From Mytilus galloprovincialis (lineage: Eukaryota; Mollusca; Bivalvia; Mytilida; Mytilidae), in the NCBI RefSeq assembly GCF_965363235.1, contig NC_134839.1:97297743-97361742 (forward strand): a stretch of DNA of 64,000 bases. The letters run 5' to 3'. Below the pieces are notes generated by a model. The model was not told the DNA's origin and ran no database searches. It worked only from the letters and a program-made list of their open reading frames with translations. How positions within the stretch are numbered: the stretch's first letter is position 1; each line of letters begins with the position of its first letter. Position numbers and translations under genes: made by a program. Positions 4,513 through 64,000 of this stretch are shown here, in pieces.

Positions 4513-5101
4513 GCTCCGCCCACTGCCGGACTGAGTATTGTATGAACCTGCGTGACCTCAGAATGTGTATTGCAATCGCATTCCAATGACGTATCAATTG
4601 CGAATTAACGATTCCTTTTATGCGTTCTGTATGTTTTCTTTAGAGCAATAAGAGTCACACCAATTTTCTGATAACATACACACATGAACAGCAGTCTTTT
4701 CTAAGATGACAACTATCGATTTCAAAACTTGAATGTGTATGATTGTGTAATTACAAAAACAATTATGTCAATTTCAGCATGCATGTTTAGTGAATGACAA
4801 GTCTGAAGCGTAGGACAACTCGTACACTCCTGTTTCAAATTGGACAATGTTTTGTTATTTGTTTTTACTGTTGGAATTAGTTGTTATGTTAAAATAGATA
4901 ATTATTCACTTTGAGCGAGGTAGTATTGTTGACCATTCGAGATTTTGTTTTGCGAACCCGTCTTCAGCTGAATGTGTGATTACTGAATCGCATTACTACA
5001 CGGGCCTCAAGGGATTTCAAAAATCGAAAATAAATGCAAAACATGTGGGTTTGTTTTGTCTTTTAAAACACAAATAGCATACAGAATTAATTGCAGGATA
5101 A

Positions 5102-8482: not shown

Positions 8483-9334
8483 TTTAAAATAAAATGTATC
8501 ATATGAAGACTAATTTACAAGCAAATATGTATTTTTTATGACAAGCCTCTACCCCTTGCGACGCAAAATCTGACACCAGGAGCGACACTTTATATTTTGA
8601 TGAATAACAGTTTTAAAACCAATTAATTTTAACTAAGAAACTGGTATTTGGTATAAGTCAATGAGAGGAATACAATTCCATATAAATGATACGGAGGATG
8701 GCTGTGTAAAGTAGTTTTTTATACCGAAATTTGCATATAAATCCTCAAAATCTGCAACACGGAAAACTAGGGCGAGGTGTTTGAGAAAACTAAGCACTGA
8801 AAACGACTGCTTCTGCTTTCAGGAAATAGATTATGTTGAGGTTCCTTCCGTGCAATACATTATATGGTACTGAGAGTTCTAGAAATAAGAAATTTTGATG
8901 CTTGAACTTACCTTGTTACTTTTTCGTCGCTTCAAAATTGCCACCCCATGTCAAACATAGCCGACACCCCGCACGTGGCGTTCTACACGGTGTTAATTCT
9001 ATCAATAGTCAAAGCAAGTGAATAGTAGATTCAAAACCCTTTTAAAATCATGATTATGAATGAATTAAGGTTTGAAACACTCATTTACTATTCTCATCGT
9101 TTTTCTAAATCTCTCATTGACCAATACTTTTAGAAATGTACTTTATGCCTTTACGGTAAATACATATGCGTGATATTTAAATTGTTTAGATGGTTTATTA
9201 TTGTATTCTTACTTACCTACACATATTGATATTTCTGTCTTGATTATAATTTAAGAAATGTAATGTGTTGTGTCTTTATGTCTTTTTGTTTATTTTTCTT
9301 TATTACCGTATTTGTTTTTATAATGTTTCGAATT

Positions 9335-45295: not shown

Positions 45296-46042
45296 AATAT
45301 GCGCGGAAGGTTTGGCATGCCATAAAACCTGATTTAACACATTATTTATTTTCTTTTATGTAGTTTTAAAATATCAAATAGTGTGTTTATAATTATGTTG
45401 GCATTTATAATTGTAACAGTTCAATGTTAATATCAAATAGTGTGTTTCTAATTATGTTGGCATTTATAATTGTAACAGTGATTCTGGTGTTCAGTTGTGT
45501 TTCCTTTGATTTTAGTTATGACTATTGTACAGAGGATCACTACTGTTTCCTTTGATTTTAGTTATGACTATTGTACAGCGGATCACTACTGTTTCCTTTG
45601 ATTTTAGTTATGACTATTGTACAGCGGATCACTACTGTTGCCTTTGATTTTAGTTATGACTATTGTACAGCGGATCACTACTGTTGCCTTTGATTTTAGT
45701 TATGACTATTGTATAGCGGATCACTACTGTTTCCTTTGATTTTAGTTATGACTATTGTACAGCGGATCACTACTGTTGCCTTTATTTAAAATTGTTAAAA
45801 AACATAAAACCAGGTTCAACCCACCATTTTTTTCACAAGATGTCCTGTACTAAATCAGGAATATGTCAATTGTTATCAAATAGTCCATTTATATCTATGT
45901 TGGCAATTGTTTTTGTTGGTGTGTTTATTTTCCTCTTATGATCGTTGCTGTGTTTCTCTCCGTTTTAGTTTGTAACCCGGATTTAATTTAGCTTAATAAA
46001 TGACCTTTGAACAGCGGTTTACTACTGTTACCTTTATTTAAA
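45296..46042 (+). mobile_element. Family A copy with an internal minisatellite
   Basis: The diverged head (GTTTGGCATGCCATAAAACC near 45311), a 59-bp duplication (45371 and 45430), then a 46-bp tandem array, then a second GTTCAACCCACC segment (near 45815) and the usual 3' end at 46009-46042. It appears to be two partial copies joined. Confidence 0.65.
45500..45784 (+). repeat. 46-bp minisatellite, about six copies
   Basis: Units start at 46-bp steps (GTTATGACTATTGTACAG at 45515, 45561 and so on). Each unit contains GTACAGCGGATCACTACTGT and TGCCTTTGATTTTAG, recognisably the 3' tail of family A. Units differ by one or two bases. Confidence 0.9.
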
Positions 46043-47988: not shown

Positions 47989-50900
47989 TTATTCTAAATC
48001 AGGTAAATCTTCATCATCACTATCACTGGATTCCTTATCATTCTCCTGCAAAAGAAACATCAAAATCATAACAACAAGCACCCGGTATAAAGAGGATATA
48101 TCAATCAAGGGTATTACTAAAACATATTCTTTTTAAATTACCTATATAGGTAATACTTTACTTAACAAAACCAAGGTTTCTACTGGTGGCCGCTATTTTA
48201 ACATTCCTTTACCTAAGACATTAAATTCTAACACACACACACAGTAATTTGCAAAAACATACCTTTAATTTTCATGGAAAATAGTGTGAAAACAGAATTT
48301 TCTTTATTTTTCATTTTGTCCTATTCTTCAAAACTAATATGTTGTTCCTATGTGAATAATGGAATGAATATAAAGAGTTATCTCCCATACACTACAGTTA
48401 AAGGCAAAAAAAAGGATATGTATGACTATGTCGAGGCTCAAAATAATTTGGGCATAAATTTAAGTAGTATTCTGTAAAGAACAGTTTATGTGATGTAATC
48501 AATTTTGGGTAAGCTATATTATCAAAAGACAACTATAACCGATAAAAATCAAAATAAAATACGGGAAAAAAATTCAAATTGGATACAGTCTGTCAATCAT
48601 AAAAAAGCTTCCATGTAAGTCATAGAATTCAATGAGGGTGACAAAGTGATTGATGTCTAGAGAAATCTTTAACCACTGACTAAACCCTACATGTTGATGA
48701 CGCAATTGTATGATTTTCTAACTATTATCAATACTAACCATATCACCACCTGCATCCATACCTCCCATGCCGCCCATGCCACCCATGTTCTGCATCATCT
48801 GCAAAATATCACATGTCAATGTAAAATATAACTCCTATATAAAGGTGTCGACTAATGATCTATTGCCATATTATCAAACCTGTAGATTCTGTTTTGTTTA
48901 TTATTTTTGCTGTTTAAAGATTAACCTACCATATTTTTGGCCAAAAATGCTAAAATTGATAACTTCATAGTTTATAGGCAATAAGGTAGTTTTCTTGTTT
49001 TACATTTGTCATTTTAGGGCCTTTTATACATTTTGTAGGTGACTATGCAAAATGAGTTTTGCACATTGTTAAAGGCCATACAGAGACCTATATAGTTGTT
49101 AATTTCTGTCATTTGGTCTCTTGTGAAGAGTTGTCTCATTGGCTATAATACCACATTTTCTCCTTTATAATTACACAAATACTGAAACTAACCATAATTT
49201 GGCCATGTTTGCCAAATTTGTATATCTTTGTGGAGGAGACTGCCAGAGAGTAATCCTCCAAAACAATATCATCTGGATTCATTTATTTGTGTTGATACCA
49301 AAGGTCATGGAATGAAGAAAACTTATACATTTTCATGGATATATGATTTGGTGGATTTGCCAAAGCCTGTATAACAAAAATTTGAACATTCAAATTTGTG
49401 GTTCATTCATATCCCCGAAATCATGGTGTCCCACAAATGGTCATGAATTTACAGTATTCTCTGATTAACTTACAGACTCCAAATCCATATCTCCTGCACC
49501 ACCTTCTCCTCCTCCTGCTCCTTCATAATCGGAGTCATCTTCATCTTTCCATTTATTAAAATCTGTCTTTAACCAATGTACCTACAATCAAAGATAATCA
49601 CATCTATAAGCACATTATTCTTTAAAACATGTTTTACAAAACTAGTTTCTAGGAATAATTCTATCAAACTTTCAAATGTGAAAAACAGAATGTAAATCAT
49701 ATACATTTAACAAAACCATTTGTTTACATCATTTCTACCAACATCTTTCAGGAAATAAGGCCACAATTAAAAATATGTTGGTTTGCCCAAACCCTACCCA
49801 AAGGCATGTAGACAGTGGGTAGGTAGGTAGGCAATTTCTTTTTTTTTTATTTGGAAACAGTGAAATGGAAGTGTTGGATGTTATTTTTTGTCATGCAGAT
49901 CTGATGAAAAAAAAATCTTTATCTAATCAAGGCAATAAAAGATTTTGAGCAGGCAGATATTTTCTGGGTAGGTAGGGTTAGGGCAAACAAACATTCTTAC
50001 TTTATGGCCTAAAAGAACAAGACCAGATACAGATCTGGACATGCGAGAAGGTGTATAATTGATTGAAATATGAAAGTATCTGCCAACAGGAAGTAGCTAC
50101 AGGGCAGATATAAATATTGCTTAATACACACTACATCTGACCATTGTCAAACTGAAAAACCAACCATAAAATTATTCTATTTCAAAGAAGCCAAGAAAAC
50201 TTTGAAGTTTTTTGGACATGTGGACAGAACGATAGATGGAGTAGAGCAGTTTCACCATATGCAACAGGGAAAAAAAGATTTTTTTTTGTTCTATTGCTAT
50301 TTCACAATTTCAGGTATTATTTTTATATTTTTCAGAGATTATTCTTTGTCTAAAAGATATATGTATCTCACCTTTCTAATTGAACACATTTGTCAAATAA
50401 CGACAAAGTGTATCCCTTTGTAAAATAATGATACATTCTTGGTTCATTCCTTAGAATTTTAACCAAACAGAATATGTTCAACAAAGATTCAAACACTTAC
50501 TTTAGTTTTTTCTTTTAATAATCTCGGCCAAAAATGTTCTTCTGTGGCATCTTTCTTTTTTAAAATCAATGATATATGTCTAGGTAAAACTGCATACTTT
50601 GATTCCTGCAAGATATAAAAAAAAAACTTGTGAAATATGTAAAATTTCCTCATATATTCAACATCCTCCACCCAAATAAAACAAGAGGGATTACATACAA
50701 TCCTTACCAAAATTTAATCTATGAAAAATTGTAAAAATTTATCACCTAAAGGACTTACTTTGACATGGTGTTTAAATAATGGAAATTATTTGAAATCTTC
50801 TTTATCATTCTTACATGGATTATTTACCTGATATCAACAAAAGCCAATTCATAATTCAATTCCTTTTGAGGTACATGTACATTTGTACAGGCATATTTTT

Positions 50901-53165
50901 TCTACAGAGCAAAATATTTTTTAATTCTAAAGAGGACCTGTTTCGATCCTGTTAGTTTTGCTAGAACATCAGATTTAAATTTAAGATGCTATATTGATAT
51001 TTTCTTACTTTGCTATCTATTTCTTTGAAAAATTCTATTTTTGCTTCATGTAGTTTATTTTCTGTTCCTCCTTTGCCCCTGAAATAGATATATATATATG
51101 CTACTATTTATTGATAAGATAAGTATTATGTAGTGACATATCAAAAAAATTCATGCACTAAGAATAAGATGGTTGCATATTGTTATACTGTAATACAAAT
51201 GTATATTTATTCTTTATTGATTTCATAGACTAATGAAGTGGTCAAGGTACATTTGTTTAGTCTATCCTTTCGCACATTCATCTATATGTAACTAATTCAC
51301 AAACAGAATGTTTTTAATTTCTCATTTACAGACTTAAAGCAAAAGCTTTCATGTAACCCTGATTAATTACAAAATTAAAAAATTACAGTGCAAACCAAAT
51401 GGTGAATTTATAGTCAAAAATTGGGAATGGAAATTTCAAAGGGTTCCAGTGGCCCACTTATGGCCTACTATTTTTTCCCCTTATTTTTGCAATTGCTTGA
51501 TCATATAACAAATACATTGATTGCAGTGAATTTGGACTACAACTAAAAAATCTTATATATCAAATTGTGTGTTGCATGTTCAAATGGTAAAATATAGTAT
51601 ATATGATCACATCACCAGGAATTTGTTCATATCAACTGACTTATTTAGTCCTTAAGTCATAATGTAAGTTACTAAAAACTGATTTCAGGAGTAATAACAT
51701 TGTGGAAATACTTACTTGAAGTGTAAACCTGTGTCTGTTATTTCTATGTTTGGTTCTTTACAGTCTTCTAATACAATGGTCAGTAACACTCTATCTTTTC
51801 GTTGGGCCCATTCCATAGGTGTATGTAATACTTGTCTGAAAAATTAATCATGTCATTGAACTTTTTCTGCTTCTTGATTTGTGCATGAATAATAGAACAG
51901 ACCTATCTTAACAATATACATGTAACAACTTTACCTTAGAAGCCAAGGATATCCCTCGAAAATCAATATTTTACATAGAGTCTACCTTTGACAAGTTTTA
52001 AGACACAAATTAATTTTCTAACCTATCAAGTGTTTTGACAATCTGTTACTACAGCCAAGTGCTCCCTCAATTATTCAAACGGACCCTTCACTGCTCTGAG
52101 GGATATGATTGCCATTGTTTTCATTGATACATGCATTAGTTTTATTTTCAAAAATAATTCAACTGCACGTGTAAAATGCTTGTAAAATGTAATTTACGTA
52201 ATCTGAATAGTTATTCAACTTTAAAAATAGCTAATCCTCGATACATTCTGATTTTCTGTGTTGATAAAAACATGCATACAAGTCGAGGGAAATATCGAAA
52301 CATGAAGATTATGAGAAGAACATTTTAGGACAGTTGTTTAAATTCAATCCTTTTGTTTTTTATACCATTTAAAGCAAGACAATCTCAAGAATCTGAGATG
52401 TTCCTTGATGTTTAGAATAAAACGGTTGACGTGAGGGCATGGCCCTGAGTCAATGGTATAAGTCTACAGATTGCTTAAAAGCTATCGTATCCCAAAAGGG
52501 CTTCTAACATGTATAACTTCATAAGTGATGAATTGTCAACCATATGTTATTTCATATCCAGCAGCATCCCTTGTTGAAATTTTTGATATATTCAGCTTCT
52601 CAACAACAACAGGCTATAATTGTGTACAATGGTGTAATCAATAATTATTTTTTTGAACTAAAACAGCAGAAAATGAAGGAGTTGTGTCAGGTCTTTTTTG
52701 AGTTTTAAGTATACAGACTGCATAGGCTATTCTATTTACAAGTTTTACACTCCAAACGTTAGCTTGACAGGGGTCCCCCTTTTTAAATCCTGGATCTGCA
52801 ATGAAATGTGATTGAATAGGGAGAGAACTGCTGTAACAGTTAGTATATATTTTAAGTTGTTTCTCTATTTCTTCTACGAAAATACATTAAAGTACTATTG
52901 TTAACATTTGTGCAGGGATATGTGTTTTAGGTTTCTCAAACTTTCTAGAATCTTCTAGAAGCTGTCTTTAGTATCCCCTCCATTTTAAAATTACGTGGGA
53001 TTTACACCACTATTTCTTGTTCAAATGAATTATACAAGAATATATGATTAAAATATAATGATATAATTTCTTCCATTCAAACTATCATTGATAAACGTTC
53101 TTGTTTTAATATTTTCTTTCGTTTCCACATGTAACTTACTCTTGATCGGCCATTTTCAACGCCAT
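47989..53165 (-). CDS. PTGES3: p23 / PTGES3-like HSP90 co-chaperone, seven coding exons
   Basis: Coding exons, in transcript order: 53140-53165, 51716-51835, 51009-51078, 50501-50605, 49474-49581, 48739-48798, 47989-48045. All six introns are GT-AG and every junction keeps frame, giving 181 residues (human p23 has 160). Residues about 9-90 form the CS/p23 beta-sandwich (WAQRKDRV near the start). The family signature follows as FWPRLLKEKTK and then VHWLKTDFNKWKDEDD, where F115 and W118 match the HSP90-contacting tail residues of human p23. A Gly/Glu-rich insert, the tail-helix motif MMQNMGG with extra Gly-Met repeats, and an acidic end DEDLPDLE before the stop complete it. Known role of the family: binds the closed ATP state of HSP90, slows ATP hydrolysis and stabilises clients in the cytosol. 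M1 (53165) and M5 (53153) are both possible starts; M5 would give 177 residues. HACD3/B-ind1 was considered because it shares the CS domain, but the acidic PDLE tail and lack of membrane segments favour p23. Confidence 0.96.
49070..49172 (-). repeat. Family B 5'-end fragment in p23 intron 5
   Basis: TATAGTTGTTAATTTCTGTC, TTGGTCTCTTGTGAAGAGTT and TAATACCACATTTTCTCC are the reverse of family B. It lies between exons 5 and 6. Confidence 0.6.
49759..50009. mobile_element. Harbinger-like MITE (251 bp) in p23 intron 4
   Basis: Imperfect ~42-bp terminal inverted repeats starting GGCCA: the left reads GGCCACAATTAAAAATATG, and the right, reversed, GGCCATAAAGTAAGAATG; both continue into GTTTGCCC-AACCCTACC. 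The copy is flanked by the direct repeat TAA at 49756-49758 and 50010-50012. A 3-bp TWA target duplication with GG-starting termini is the hallmark of PIF/Harbinger. There is no coding capacity. It sits between exons 4 and 5 and disturbs neither splice site. Confidence 0.75.
52933..52960. promoter_or_regulatory. Heat-shock element (HSF1-site match) in p23 intron 1
   Basis: Inverted pentamers nTTCn/nGAAn in exact 5-bp register: TTC 52943, GAA 52948, TTC 52953, GAA 52958 are all perfect (core TTCTAGAATCTTCTAGAA). Extending left in the same register, position 52938 is AAA instead of GAA and 52933 is again TTC, so five of six units match. It lies about 180 bp inside intron 1 from the exon 1 donor. 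Stress induction of an HSP90 co-chaperone makes the location plausible; activity is inferred, not shown. Confidence 0.6.
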
Positions 53166-53624
53166 GTGAATTAGACTGGTACTAAAAATATAATTCATAC
53201 GAGGAGTAGAACAATAGAAACGAAATCAGGATAGTAAACCAGTTTCCTAAAGTGCTTGGACTGGTTACTCAAAGATATTTTTCACAAGGAGTAAAGAAGA
53301 AAAAAAGAGCCAGATGTTTTTTCAAAGCGAAACCACGTTTTATTGTAAAATTACACTATCGGTATCACAAAAGCTCGATGACAAATCAAAAAATATGACA
53401 GCATGAAATAGAAAATATAAGTGATTCCTTTGATGATTTTTAAAAATAAAAATAATTGACTGCAGAATTTGTTGACCTTGACACTTTGAATAACTGGATA
53501 GGTATTTCACGTAAAAAAGATCATAAAATGGAATGAAAGCGACATGGCTCTCTTTACGGAAAATTTTAGAGTAAGTAACATATTCAAAAGAAAGTATATA
53601 TGAAGGGTAAACATCAAACATATT

Positions 53625-54889
53625 GATCTCCTGTAGTTGGTGATCGCAATACTGGTATGTGTACTGGTATAAAAATGTTGTACCAGTGTTGTAACTTAAA
53701 AAAAAAAAAAAACAAACAATACTGCCTTTACTGGTACATTACTGATATACCACTGTAAGATCAAAGGGAAATTAAATGAACTCAAAAAGATTATAGAGGA
53801 TAATTGTGAAATCGATCATATTTAACTACAAGTTAAAAAAATAACAATGTATTATACTTGTACATATAAACAAAAGAATATTGTAATTAACTCATACTAT
53901 ATACATACATTTATAAAATATAAACAGTTGTTAATCATATATAATAATTGCTAAACATTTAATCATATTTCTATATCTTATTTAATTTGATTTATATAAA
54001 ATAAAATTATCTGAGATTTTAAATTTTAATGTTGAAAATAAATTTAAGCAAATTATTACACTTTCTGACTGTAAATTTATCATTTACATGTATGTCATCA
54101 TATTTTTTTTTACAGATATTTTAATACATGTATATGTCATGTATGTATACTAGTCTAAATATGTGTTTGTTGGTCTTTAGTTTCTTCATAATAACAAAAA
54201 AAGATATCAATATCCATTAAACATAAAAAGTTGCTTAATAGCGGTACCTGATTTTTATCAAATTAACTAGTTTGTCTACATGAATGTTAAGGGTAGTTAA
54301 AGAAGTTGATTCATAACCATGGGCAATACAATTCGTAGCAGATATATTTGTTCTACTGGTACCAATACTAATACTAGACAAGCACACCGACAGTAAGGAA
54401 CTGTACAGGTGCTATCTGAAAAAGCTTGTAATCTAGTATTAGCGTAAGAGAAAGTCCACTGAGACTGAATACTAAATATCAATATAGGAAGTGTGTGTGT
54501 GTTTGTGTGTATAACAGCAATGTCAATATAAAATTTACTAGAATATACAATGAGTCTTGGAAAGAGAGAGCTGAAAGAAAACATAGATAGGGTCCCCTGA
54601 AGTAAAAAACATCAGAAGATTTAAAACTTTCTTTAATGACAATCGCTGTGTACCATCAATAATGTCATCATCTGTTAAACATACAATCATTCCCTGTAAA
54701 ATTGTCATGTCATATATGTTAATTTCATTATGCATATGTATGTGACACCTTTAATAAAAGATTAATATTAATAACCTATAGGTATAGGTATTGTTTATTT
54801 AAAAAAAAAACACAATACTGGTACAATACTGTAATACAATACTGGTACAAAATTTTTACCAGTATTGCGATCACCAACTACAGGAGATC
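53625..54889. mobile_element. 1.27-kb terminal-inverted-repeat element upstream of p23
   Basis: The ends are perfect 33-bp inverted repeats: GATCTCCTGTAGTTGGTGAT at 53625, complemented by the end at 54857-54889. Inside both ends lie short runs of ACTGGTA/TACCAGT units (ACAATACTGGTAC repeated near 54820-54850). The interior is AT-rich with only chance frames, so it looks non-autonomous. The outermost GATC is its own complement, so it could be either part of the repeat or a 4-bp target duplication. It lies about 460 bp upstream of the p23 start codon. Confidence 0.7.
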
Positions 54890-55678
54890 CGATTAAGGAT
54901 ATAGACTAAAATAAATCAATTATCATGATCAACTGATTAAAAAATTTAAAAACTATAAGAAATCTGCATGATATAATGATTATACACAACCCTATTTGTA
55001 CACAGATGGATCTTTGGGAGGATACTACATGTCATTAGTCTTTTCTTCAGTTGTTTTCAAGCTTCATCAAGTTCATGGCAATGCGTTTAGACAAGACCTC
55101 TCTAACTTAGTAACTTACAAAAAAATGTATATGAGGCAGGTGTTACCTTAGCTTTGAACCGTAACTACATGTATTATGGTCCTTTTTTACTTATTTTTTT
55201 ATTTTTGCGGACCTAAGAGCTACAGTTCCGCAACTACATGTAGTGTTTCCTAAGAAAGGGGACGCAGTCTGTATCAAAATACTTTTTTTAATTTTAAAAA
55301 AGAACCGGAAATACCATAATGTCCAGATGTTGGTCCTATTTTACTCAAAGTCTCATGACAAATCAGATTGGAATAAAGAGATTTCTGAGCAAATGCCGAA
55401 AAATAAAAAAGTTAGTTTTTTTTATTGATTTTTCTACTATTTTAGGGGACTTCTTCTCTTTACTATCAGAGTTTCTGTACAACCTCTGTCCTTTTTAAGG
55501 GGATAGTTAAAAGGTCAAACACATGTAAACCAACCAAATACTTGTGACGACTGTATACAAGTTAAAAGGACATGCAGCTTGAATAGGTCTACTTTTCAAG
55601 CTGGAAAGTATGTGAATAGGTCAGGAAAACTATCAGAAATATATGATAAGGTCAATAAAGTTCTTACAACATTGTCAT

Positions 55679-56770
55679 CTTTCTTGTCATTCCGGCCTGT
55701 GTTTTATCAACCAATTTTCTCCCTTTTGGCCTTTCTTGTCATTCCAGCCTGTGTTTTATCAACCAATTTTCTCCCTTTTGGCCTTTCTTGTCATTCCAGC
55801 CTGTGTTTTATCAACCAATTTTCTCCCTTTTGGCCTTTCATGTCATTCCAGCCTGTGTTTTATCAACCAATTTTCTCCCTTTTGGCCTTTCATGTCATTC
55901 CAGCCTGTGTTTTATCAACCAATTTTCTCCCTTTTGGCCTTTCTTGTCATTCCAGCCTGTGTTTTATCAACCAATTTTCTCCCTTTTGGCCTTTCTTGTC
56001 ATTCCAGCCTGTGTTTTATCAACCAATTTTCTCCCTTTTGGCCTTTCTTGTCATTCCAGCCTGTGTTTTATCAACCAATTTTCTCCCTTTTGGCCTTTCT
56101 TGTCATTCCAGCCTGTGTTTTATCAACCAATTTTCTCCCTTTTGGCCTTTCTTGTCATTCCAGCCTGTGTTTTATCAACCAATTTTCTCCCTTTTGGCCT
56201 TTCATGTCATTCCAGCCTGTGTTTTATCAACCAATTTTCTCCCTTTTGGCCTTTCATGTCATTCCAGCCTGTGTTTTATCAACCAATTTTCTCCCTTTTG
56301 GCCTTTCTTGTCATTCCAGCCTGTGTTTTATCAACCAATTTTCTCCCTTTTGGCCTTTCTTGTCATTCCAGCCTGTGTTTTATCAACCAATTTTCTCCCT
56401 TTTGGCCTTTCTTGTCATTCCAGCCTGTGTTTTATCAACCAATTTTCTCCCTTTTGGCCTTTCTTGTCATTCCAGCCTGTGTTTTATCAACCAATTTTCT
56501 CCCTTTTGGCCTTTCATGTCATTCCAGCCTGTGTTTTATCAACCAATTTTCTCCCTTTTGGCCTTTCATGTCATTCCAGCCTGTGTTTTATCAACCAATT
56601 TTCTCCCTTTTGGCCTTTCTTGTCATTCCAGCCTGTGTTTTATCAACCAATTTTCTCCATTTTGGCCTTTCTTGTCATTCCAGCCTGTGTTTTATCAACC
56701 AATTTTCTCCCTTTTGGCCTTTCTTGTCATTCCAGCCTGTGTTTTATCAACCAATTTTCTCCCTTTTGGC
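55679..56770 (+). repeat. 52-bp minisatellite, 21 copies
   Basis: Unit of 52 bp (starts CCTTTCTTGTCATTCCAGCC, ends CTCCCTTTTGG), repeated with exact 52-bp steps (for example 55741 and 55793). Copies are almost identical. The main variant is CTTTCTTG versus CTTTCATG; the first copy has CCGGCC and one late copy has CTCCAT. Because 52 is not a multiple of 3 and the unit lacks stops in all forward frames, three overlapping forward frames of 361-417 codons run through the array. They encode only the repeat and I do not call them genes. Confidence 0.98.
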
Positions 56771-57552
56771 ACTTTGGTATTACACTGTTACATTACACAC
56801 CAATGAAACCCAAACAATATTGGAAAAGGTAACATTTTTACATACGCAATATATGAAAAAGTCTACATTTTGAAATTAAAATTGTATGAAAAGGGTGGGG
56901 TAACAGAAACCCAGCGGCACCCACTATCAATTAAGTATTGAAGTGGCCCCCGAGCTATGATGTAAGCAAATTTAGATTGTGGTATTACTCAATTTATTTC
57001 ATTTGACTGGGCGGAGTTTATCCAGTTCGCTCATAATGAACCAGTCCATCTATAGATAGGTGTTTTAGGATATCTAATAAATGCATTGTCCAGTCATTCT
57101 TTTGTAAATTCTTTTGAGGTCACTTATAGGTGATTAGAAATCAGTACTAACTATAACGGCAATCATTGTAATCACACACATTTTCAAATCGACTGTTCTC
57201 ATGCAAATTAAAACGTAAGCTCCGCCCGATCAGTTGAAATAACATTGGTAATACAGATTCAAAATTTGTAACAGCAATTGCCTTTCAAGTCTTATTTATT
57301 GCTTTTAAATGACAATTTTAATCAATTGGATAGAGTTATTGCCCTTTGTCCTTTAGCCATAATTTTTGCTAAATTAAAGTAATTTATTCACTTTTGGCAA
57401 AACAACAAAAATCATCAAGGCAAAAAAAATCTACAATTGTGTCCATATATATCCAATTGTTTTTCAGAAAGGTTATAATGCATGTAATGGTAAAACATTC
57501 TTATTACAGTTCTTGTGTTGGTTTACAATTGGGTAGGTATATATATATAGAA
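56771..57552. other. No recognisable gene or repeat
   Basis: Unique-looking sequence between the minisatellite and the family B copy. Confidence 0.45.
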
Positions 57553-61639: not shown

Positions 61640-62965
61640 TCATTTTTATATGACCGCAAAAATTGTAATTTTTTGGTCGTATATTGCTATCACGTTGGCG
61701 TCGTCGTCGTCCGAATACTTTTAGTTTTCGCACTCTAACTTTAGTAAAAGTGAATAGAAATCAATGAAATTTTAACACAAGGTTTATGACCACAAAAGGA
61801 AGCTTGGGATTGATTTTGGGAGTTTTGGTCCCAACATTTTAGGAATTAGGAGCCAAAAAGGGCCCAAATAAGCATTTTCTTGGTTTTCGCACTATAACTT
61901 TAGTTTAAGTGAATAGAAATCTATGAAATTTTGACACAAGGTTTATGACCACAAAAGGAATGTTGGGATTGATTTTGGGAGTTTTGGTTCCAACAGTTTA
62001 GGAATTAAGGGCCAAAAAAGGGCCCAAATAAGCATTATTCTTGGTTTTCGCACAATAACTTTAGTATAAGTAAATAGAAATATATGAAATTTAAACACAA
62101 GGTTTATGACCATAAAAGGAAGGTTGGGTTTGATTTTGGGAGTTTTGGTCCTAACAGTTTAGGAATAAGGGGCCCAAAGGGTCCAAAATTGAACTTTGTG
62201 TGATTTCATCAAAAATTGAATAATTGGGGTTCTTTGATATGCTGAATCTAACTATGTATGTAGATTCTTAATTTTTGGTCCCGTTTTCAAATAGGTCTAC
62301 ATTAAGGTCCAAAGGGTCCAAAATTAAACTTAGTTTGATTTTAACAAAAATTGAATCCTTGGGGTTCTTTGATAAGCTGAATTTAAAAATGTACTTAGAT
62401 TTTTAATTATTGGCCTTGTTTTTAAGTTGGTCCAAATCGGGGTCCAAAATTAAACTTTGTTTGATTTCATCAAAAATTGAATAAATGGGTTCTTTGATAT
62501 GCCAAATCTAACTGTGTATGTAGATTCTTAATTTTTGGTCCAGTTTTCAAATTGGTCTACATTAAGGTCCAAAGGGTCCAAAATTAAACTAAGTTTGATT
62601 TTAACAAAAATTAAATTCTTGGGCTTATTTGATATGCTTTATCTAAACATGTACTTTGATTTTTAATTATGAGCCCAGTTTTCATGTTGGTCCAAATCAG
62701 GATTCCATATCAAGTATTGTGCAATAGCAAGAAATTTTCAATTGCACAGTATTGCACAATAGCAAGAAATATCTAATTGCACAATATTGTGCAATAGCAA
62801 TTAATTTTCAATTGGAGTTATCTTTCTTTGTATAGAATAGTAGTTGATAATATATGTTGGAAATTTGCCAGACATGACTATGATGTCATTTTCTATTTTT
62901 ATTTGCCAATAACTTTATGTAAATAACTTCATTGGAAATTTGCCAATATAAAATGTTGCTGATGA
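61640..62965 (+). repeat. Composite tandem repeat, copy 1
   Basis: Opens with a hairpin (TATGACCGCAAAAA ... TTTTTTGGTCGTATA, 61648-61684), then TCACGTTGGCGTCGTCGTCG, three ~160-bp units starting GTTTTCGCAC (61724, 61883, 62044), four ~125-bp units around GGTCCAAAATTAAACTT (62180-62700), and a short run of ~37-bp units containing TATTGTGCAATAGCAAG (62717-62815). Non-coding. I recall this arrangement as widespread in bivalves. Confidence 0.88.
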
Positions 62966-64000
62966 AGCTTTTTATACGACCGCAAAATTTGAAAAAATTT
63001 TCGTCGTATATTGCTATCACGTTGGCGTCGTCTGCGTCGTCGTCCGAATACTTTTAGTTTTCGCACTCTAACTTTAGTAAAAGTGAATAGAAATCTATGA
63101 AATTTTAACACAAGGTTTATGACCACAAAAGGAAGGTTGGGATTGATTTTGGGAGTTTTAGTCCCAACATTTTAGGAATTAGGGGCCAAAAAGGGCCCAA
63201 ATAAGCATTTTCTTGGTTTTCGCACTATAACTTTAGTTTAAGTAAATAGAAATCTATGAAATTTTGACATAAGGTTTATGACCACAAAAGAAAGGTTGGG
63301 ATTGATTTTGGGAGTTTTGGTTCCAACAGTTTAGGAATTAGGGGCCAAAAAAGGGCCCAAATAAGCATTATTCTTGGTTTTCGCACAATAACTTTAGTTT
63401 AAGTAAATAGAAATCAATGAAATTTAAACACAATGTTTATGACCACAAAAGGAAGGTTGGTATTGATTTTGGGAGTTTAGGTCCCAACAGTTTAGGAATT
63501 AGGGGCCAAAAAGGGACCCAAATAAGCATTTTTTTTTGGTTTTCGCACCATAACTTTAGTATAAGTAAATAGAAATCTATGAAATTTAAACACAAGGTTT
63601 ATGACCATAAAAGGAAGGTTGGTATTGATTTTGGGAGTTTTGGTCCCAACAGTTTAGGAATAAAGGGCCCAAAGGGTCCAGATTTAAACTTTGTTTGATT
63701 TTATCAAAAATTGAATAATTGGGGTTCTTTGATATGCCGAATCTAACTGTGTATGTAGATTCTTAATTTTTGGTCCCGTTTTCAAATTGGTCTACATTAA
63801 GGTCCAAAGGGTCCAAAATTAAACTTAGTTTGATTTTAACAAAAATTGAATCCTTGGGGTTCTTTGATATGCTGAATCTAAAAATGTACTTAGATTTTTT
63901 ATTATTGGCCCAGTTTTCAAGTTGGTCCAAATCGGGGTCCAAAATTAAACTTTGTTTGATTTCATCAAAAATTGAATAATTGGGGTTCTTTGATATGCCA
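62966..64000 (+). repeat. Composite tandem repeat, copy 2, cut by the window end
   Basis: Same order as copy 1: hairpin head (62973-63010), GTCGTC run, four ~160-bp units (63060, 63221, 63379, 63540; one more than copy 1), then the ~125-bp units up to the window edge. The open frame at 63770-63979 is repeat sequence. Confidence 0.88.

Follow-up and report, generated by a model that had tools for sequence, protein, structure and literature searches.

Does the alternating TTC/GAA array in the first intron of a mussel p23 gene serve as a heat-shock element (HSE), through which heat-shock factor (HSF) would control this partner of HSP90, or is it a chance arrangement of letters? The question was raised by a preliminary description of a stretch of 64,000 nucleotides of Mytilus galloprovincialis DNA (referred to here as the window, with positions counted along its whole length), which reported four contiguous perfect pentamers, with a fifth in register, at 52933..52960. 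Both coordinates and letters proved correct, and the letters as given read TTCTCAAACTTTCTAGAATCTTCTAGAA. Since the p23 gene lies on the minus strand, we list the element by its sense-strand reading:

52933..52960, minus strand: predicted heat-shock element of six pentamers, 17/18, TTCTAGAAGATTCTAGAAAGTTTGAGAA on the sense strand of p23 (letters and register scoring)

Units of TTC or GAA recur here every five bases (TTC 52933-35, AAA 52938-40, TTC 52943-45, GAA 52948-50, TTC 52953-55 and GAA 52958-60), and 17 of the 18 fixed positions fit across the six units, the right-hand four of which are perfect (12/12). The odd unit reads AAA instead of GAA. As this unit keeps two of its three bases, the array is better described as six pentamers with one mismatch, and counting it renders the six-pentamer array contiguous. 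The element contains the run of at least three contiguous alternating nGAAn/nTTCn pentamers in a 5-bp register by which an HSE is recognised. When the 64-kb window was searched for four-pentamer scores of at least 11/12, it stood alone, with three overlapping matches that all fall inside it. A 501-base segment spanning exon 1 and the element matched itself alone in a genome search that skipped very common words, and a repeat origin of the element was ruled out, no second copy of this segment having been found. A single DNA strand at the element folds with a z of -2.66; hairpin function was dismissed as separate evidence, because the fold follows from the palindrome TTCTAGAA. A bacterial-type promoter scan was set aside as irrelevant to an animal gene.

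The gene model was assembled from minus-strand reading frames, which encode p23 piecewise and which, when joined at consensus splice sites, give a predicted protein of 177 residues (MADQEQVLHTPMEWAQRKDR...SDSDDEDLPDLE) in seven exons:

53140..53153, minus strand: coding part of p23 exon 1 (MADQE, phase 2), donor GTAAGT, predicted from splice phase and donor
51836..53139, minus strand: p23 intron 1, 1,304 nt, containing the element (splice-site joining)
51716..51835, minus strand: p23 exon 2 (homology and splice-site joining)
51009..51078, minus strand: p23 exon 3 (homology and splice-site joining)
50501..50605, minus strand: p23 exon 4 (homology and splice-site joining)
49474..49581, minus strand: p23 exon 5 (homology and splice-site joining)
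48739..48798, minus strand: p23 exon 6 (splice-site joining)
47989..48045, minus strand: coding part of p23 exon 7 to the stop, ending in SDSDDEDLPDLE (splice-site joining and structure match)

Exon 1 would read ATGGCCGATCAAGA followed by the donor GTAAGT, at 53153-53140, in a phase that fits exon 2 at 51835. In the structure database, the predicted protein matched Prostaglandin E synthase 3 (the PTGES3 chain) with an E value of 1.6e-23 over residues 12-177, including the acidic ..DSDDEDLPDLE end, and among solved structures it matched yeast Sba1 (E 8.7e-16). The Pfam CS domain covers residues 12-85 (36.4 bits). This domain and the acidic C-terminal tail of the predicted protein confirm the identity of the gene as p23/PTGES3/Sba1, and the earlier placement of the element in p23 intron 1 was upheld by the predicted exon-1 donor at 53140 (GTAAGT), by exon 2 running from 51835 and by the match to PTGES3. 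A whole-genome query with p23 matched four p23 exons at this locus and revealed no second p23 gene, whether retrocopy or paralogue; elsewhere it yielded one partial match of 41% (E 0.116). A genome-wide search for the CS-domain family missed the p23 locus, which indicates that split exons limit that search.

How often such an array should be met by chance was assessed by simulation and by counting in the genome. The initial estimate for four perfect pentamers, 0.004 per 64 kb (0.008 in either phase), holds under equal base use and is two to five times too low when set against simulation or genome. In 1,500 simulated windows of 64 kb (96 Mb) with the dinucleotide frequencies of the window, we counted 11 TTC-first and 17 GAA-first perfect four-pentamer sites, corresponding to 0.007 per window in the observed phase and 0.019 in both phases. 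Across the genome (1,384,861,812 bases in 331 contigs), TTC-first perfect four-pentamers numbered 453 (0.021 per 64 kb, repeats included), while the reversed pattern that served as control gave 156 (0.007 per 64 kb). For a perfect four-pentamer match, the expectation is 0.007-0.02 per 64 kb. When one mismatch was allowed in a GAA-first four-pentamer search of the window, one match was found where 0.24 were expected, and 21 of 100 shuffles had at least one, so that such a match is by itself unimpressive. For six pentamers at 17/18 or better, the 96 Mb of simulated DNA contained none in either phase, which supports the initial view that the array is unlikely to be chance at this place. Genome-wide, six-pentamer searches with at most one mismatch returned 29 TTC-first matches against 14 for the control and 50 GAA-first matches against 12, the reversed-pattern controls being counted with whatever repeats they hold; judged from these controls, the rate of six-pentamer matches at 17/18 is about 0.001 per 64 kb.

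The majority of the real six-pentamer matches come from two repeat families, and the p23 site belongs to neither. The 29 TTC-first rows comprise 15 copies of an TTCATGAATA array, six copies of one repeated element and eight rows at seven other places including p23, and the GAA-first list adds three further places outside the TTCATGAATA type (a hand count from the listings). The p23 site is one of about ten six-pentamer places outside the two families in 1.385 Gb. In 1.4 Gb, some six-pentamer arrays do form without selection, and since these roughly ten places show no excess over the reversed-pattern controls (14 and 12), the case for function rests on location, not on the array alone. The string TTCTAGAANNTTCTAGAA is no commoner genome-wide than its control (four against three). 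Two of its three other places are related copies of one repeated stretch, and at none of the three was a chaperone recognised by eye among reading frames of at least 100 codons. Near position 5001 of two fetched loci (L032 and L034), related copies of about 400 bp carry TTCTAGAANNTTCTAGAA about 14 nt from the string TATATATATA, a layout like that of an hsp70 promoter. In the flanks of the fetched loci L020-L036 (158,950 bases, not a random sample), nine four-pentamer rows scored at least 11/12, seven of them in L035 and L036, the carriers of TTCATGAATA arrays.

The first of the two families is a dispersed element whose TTCATGAATA arrays form perfect six-unit HSE-like repeats, as at L035:4924-5028 and 8799-8826 (G000:C1:45822624-45832623). 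The TTC-first search found 14 further places with such arrays, and the GAA-first search a few more; of the 14 perfect TTC-first places, 13 have a second array, GAA-first, at a distance of 1.4 to 9 kb. These arrays might be repeats to which a transposase binds, or they might supply HSF sites in mobile form. The second family consists of six copies of a mobile element of about 3.4 kb (at the centre of L020, L022, L025, L028, L029 and L030), which are 87-99% identical around the site. A 356-codon frame of this element, listed in L020 only and presumably resembling a Harbinger-type transposase, encloses the 17/18 HSE-like match, which is probably fortuitous. A reading of this six-copy family, with TTCTGGAACATTCCACAAAGTTCTAGAA, as hsp70 promoters was dropped, as it is a repeated element with the pentamer match inside a reading frame.

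The rival that survives best is that the pentamers of the p23 array came together at random and that HSF plays no part there, as the number of non-family places would allow. By coordinate comparison, all nine other places are more than 500 kb from any HSP70 or HSP90 match, and inspection by eye of the reading frames of at least 100 codons at four of them (L024, L026, L027 and L031) revealed no recognisable chaperone. What speaks against it is the company that the p23 array keeps: taking 26 control sites and assuming 200 proteostasis genes of 2 kb each, we would expect an array to fall near one of them by coincidence about 0.008 times per genome, and the p23 array is no more than 210 nt from exon 1 of a gene reported to be an HSF1 target. 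On this evidence, we regard a chance origin as unlikely.

The earlier proposal that HSF might control p23 is plausible, and fits reports from human, mouse and Candida. Human PTGES3 is listed as a gene that goes up with heat and has an HSF1 ChIP peak within 50 kb in HepG2 cells (PMC3988108), and mouse Ptges3 is named as a shared HSF1 target (PMC6888953). In Candida albicans, the SBA1 promoter is reported to be bound by Hsf1 (PMC5873724) and SBA1 to be heat-induced (PMC3675641). In the gill of M. californianus, prostaglandin E synthase 3 is given among the protein-folding genes that were higher at a high, warm outplant site than in a common garden, in mussels sampled before that day's heat, and the gene set that includes PTGES3 appears to have changed in transcript, not in protein (PMC10690110). 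The main text of an oyster HSF1 knock-down paper gave no match for p23 or prostaglandin E synthase (PMC6688261), the text of PMC4668643 that was searched gave none for ptges3, and p23 appears just as an HSP90 partner in two passages of PMC8709578. Among the papers listed from the open-licence literature, a scope outside which most subscription journals fall, we found no description of a p23 HSE in a mollusc.

The p23 element can also be compared with other chaperone genes of the same genome. An HSF DNA-binding exon was found in this genome, and reads HSNIASFIRQLNM, which we take to be the standard HSF recognition helix. We scanned 15 stretches (eight hsp70, hsp90, four further HSP70-family, one Cpn10-like and one Aha1-like), located via HSP90 and HSP70 matches and via domain searches for Aha1, Cpn10 and HSF; the eight hsp70 stretches are the 5' sides of genes with the domain in one exon, and one match has two stop codons. 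Four-unit sites of at least 11/12 were present in three of the 15, namely two divergent hsp70 genes on contig C8 and hsp90, and absent from the other 12, some of which may stop short of the promoter. One stretch (L046) has a single perfect three-unit site, and the remaining 11, several of which may likewise stop short of the promoter, have neither kind of site. The HSPE1-like and AHSA1-like stretches (L052 and L053), with no site of at least 11/12, carry little weight, as their first exon was probably not reached. The p23 element (12/12 and 17/18) outscores every site in the 15 stretches; the best six-unit scores in the two C8 hsp70 genes are 15/18 and 16/18. In each of these two genes one HSE stops 9-10 nt before an TATATAAA-type box, which is the classical layout.

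The two C8 genes stand head to head (L038 and L040, G000:C8:37793700-37799700), and both have a pair of imperfect HSEs some 0.65-1.0 kb ahead of the HSP70 domain; in each pair one HSE immediately precedes the TATATAAA-type box, a placement that suggests a 5' UTR intron. In the case of hsp90 (matches at G000:C3:98011535-98016218, 5' stretch L045), two perfect trimers lie 308-339 nt upstream of the donor of a putatively non-coding exon 1, and an 11/12 site with a perfect three-unit core lies 448 nt past this donor, in the putative first intron. For M. galloprovincialis Hsp90, the published 5' region is described as rich in HSEs and as including a non-translated exon (PMC2900285).

The preliminary description had set the element in an intron rather than in the promoter. 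The first half of this stands, and the contrast is overdrawn. From 53,600 to 52,951, the ratio of observed to expected CpG in 250-base steps is 0.72-1.04; from 53,000 to 52,351 it is 0.13-0.40; and at 52,400-52,051 it is back up to 0.97 and 0.90, each step holding 1 to 7 CpGs. This profile would fit a promoter region that ends roughly at the element. As the element lies 180 nt beyond the predicted exon-1 donor and adjoins the region around exon 1 in which CpG content is normal, "promoter-proximal element" is a better name for it.

A second rival places a promoter downstream, such that HSF at the element would give rise to a heat-specific transcript that begins within intron 1. Both human HSP90 genes are reported to have new initiation sites within the first intron (PMC4980810), and a possible TATA string lies downstream of the p23 element:

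52844..52849, minus strand: TATATA on the sense strand, closest of its kind downstream of the element, a weak internal-promoter candidate (string match only)

The gap of 84 nt between this string and the element is, however, far above the 9-10 nt spacing from HSE to TATA in the two hsp70 promoters, TATATA is common in DNA of about 30% GC, and CpG content drops downstream of the element, if on small counts. The CS domain match begins at residue 12, and the first in-frame ATG of exon 2 corresponds to Met12; a start there would drop the first 11 residues of p23 and retain the whole CS domain. All in all, a downstream promoter appears even less likely than a chance array, and we consider it very unlikely that a heat-specific internal promoter is centred on the element and yields p23 minus 11 residues, such that stress would alter isoform as well as amount. 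Least likely of all is that the element is bound by HSF in the service of an antisense or non-coding RNA or of another gene, or that a factor other than HSF binds it: HSEs function in both orientations, which would allow another transcript, but inspection by eye of the 53.2-64 kb region upstream of p23, where tandem arrays are prominent, revealed no gene-like reading frame, and the TTC-2-GAA register suits HSF, STAT sites typically having a 3-nt spacer.

Several repeats surround the gene. About 2.5 kb upstream of p23 exon 1, a 52-bp tandem repeat (55679-56775; 21 copies, 99% match) leaves each of the three forward frames open for about 400 codons. GATCTCCTGTAGTTGGTGATCGCAATACTGGT occurs upstream in inverted copies, at 53620-53760 (+) and 54800-54900 (-), which are perhaps the ends of a small mobile element. 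Satellite-like arrays with periods of about 135 and 160 bp occupy the right end of the window (61724-64000), and a 46-bp tandem array lies downstream of p23 (45498-45787).

Taken together, these data make it probable that the p23 element is a genuine HSE, acting as a promoter-proximal downstream control site in intron 1 that raises p23 under heat. Upon heat or proteotoxic stress, HSF trimers would occupy the six-pentamer array, the six units of which would suit two trimers, probably side by side. Bound HSF would then boost the output of the ordinary p23 promoter, which would lie some hundreds of bases upstream, and HSF at the array may also support basal p23 expression. In this scheme we infer HSF binding, heat induction, where the upstream start lies and that the element works on it in the manner of an enhancer. 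The interpretation first offered for the element was mainly right and is partly supported, the functional role of the element being a prediction.

If the element does act as an HSE, p23 would join the direct HSF regulon of what is probably an intertidal bivalve, via one exceptionally good site, and p23 and hsp90 of the same genome would hint that HSEs in intron 1 are a layout used by the HSP90 machinery here, as they are in human HSP90AB1. It would also provide a concrete site for allele and occupancy tests in work on mussel thermal tolerance. The general picture of HSF action is unchanged by it.

HSF sites in intron 1 are already known from Drosophila and from human HSP90AB1, and the p23 site would add one more case; with such clear precedents, the arrangement is not a new kind of control site. 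Intron 1 of human HSP90AB1 is reported to hold two typical HSEs, at +680 to +695 and +733 to +747, that are vital for the heat response (PMC4980810). In Drosophila, HSF peaks are reported in intron 1 of Hsp60 (+377), CG11267 (+267) and Tom34 (+263), and introns have the largest share of HSF sites, many of them in non-induced genes (PMC3021535). p23 resembles HSP90AB1 in being a chaperone-system gene with an HSE past its start, within the first intron, given its predicted exon 1; HSP90AB1 differs in having two short HSEs, whereas p23 has one six-pentamer array, probably closer to the start, and in having been characterised experimentally, whereas the p23 site is known from its sequence. In Hsp60, Tom34 and CG11267, which we take to be Hsp10, the HSF site is in intron 1, some hundreds of bases past the start, as the putative site of p23 would be, although these are other genes and their sites are shown by ChIP, while that of p23 is read from the letters of the DNA. 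In Candida, SBA1 is likewise a p23 orthologue under Hsf1, but its Hsf1 site is in the promoter, whereas the candidate site of M. galloprovincialis p23 lies in the intron. Finally, hsp90 of the same genome resembles p23 in having an HSE in its putative first intron, and differs in that this intronic site is weaker (11/12) and is accompanied by two perfect trimers upstream of the donor.
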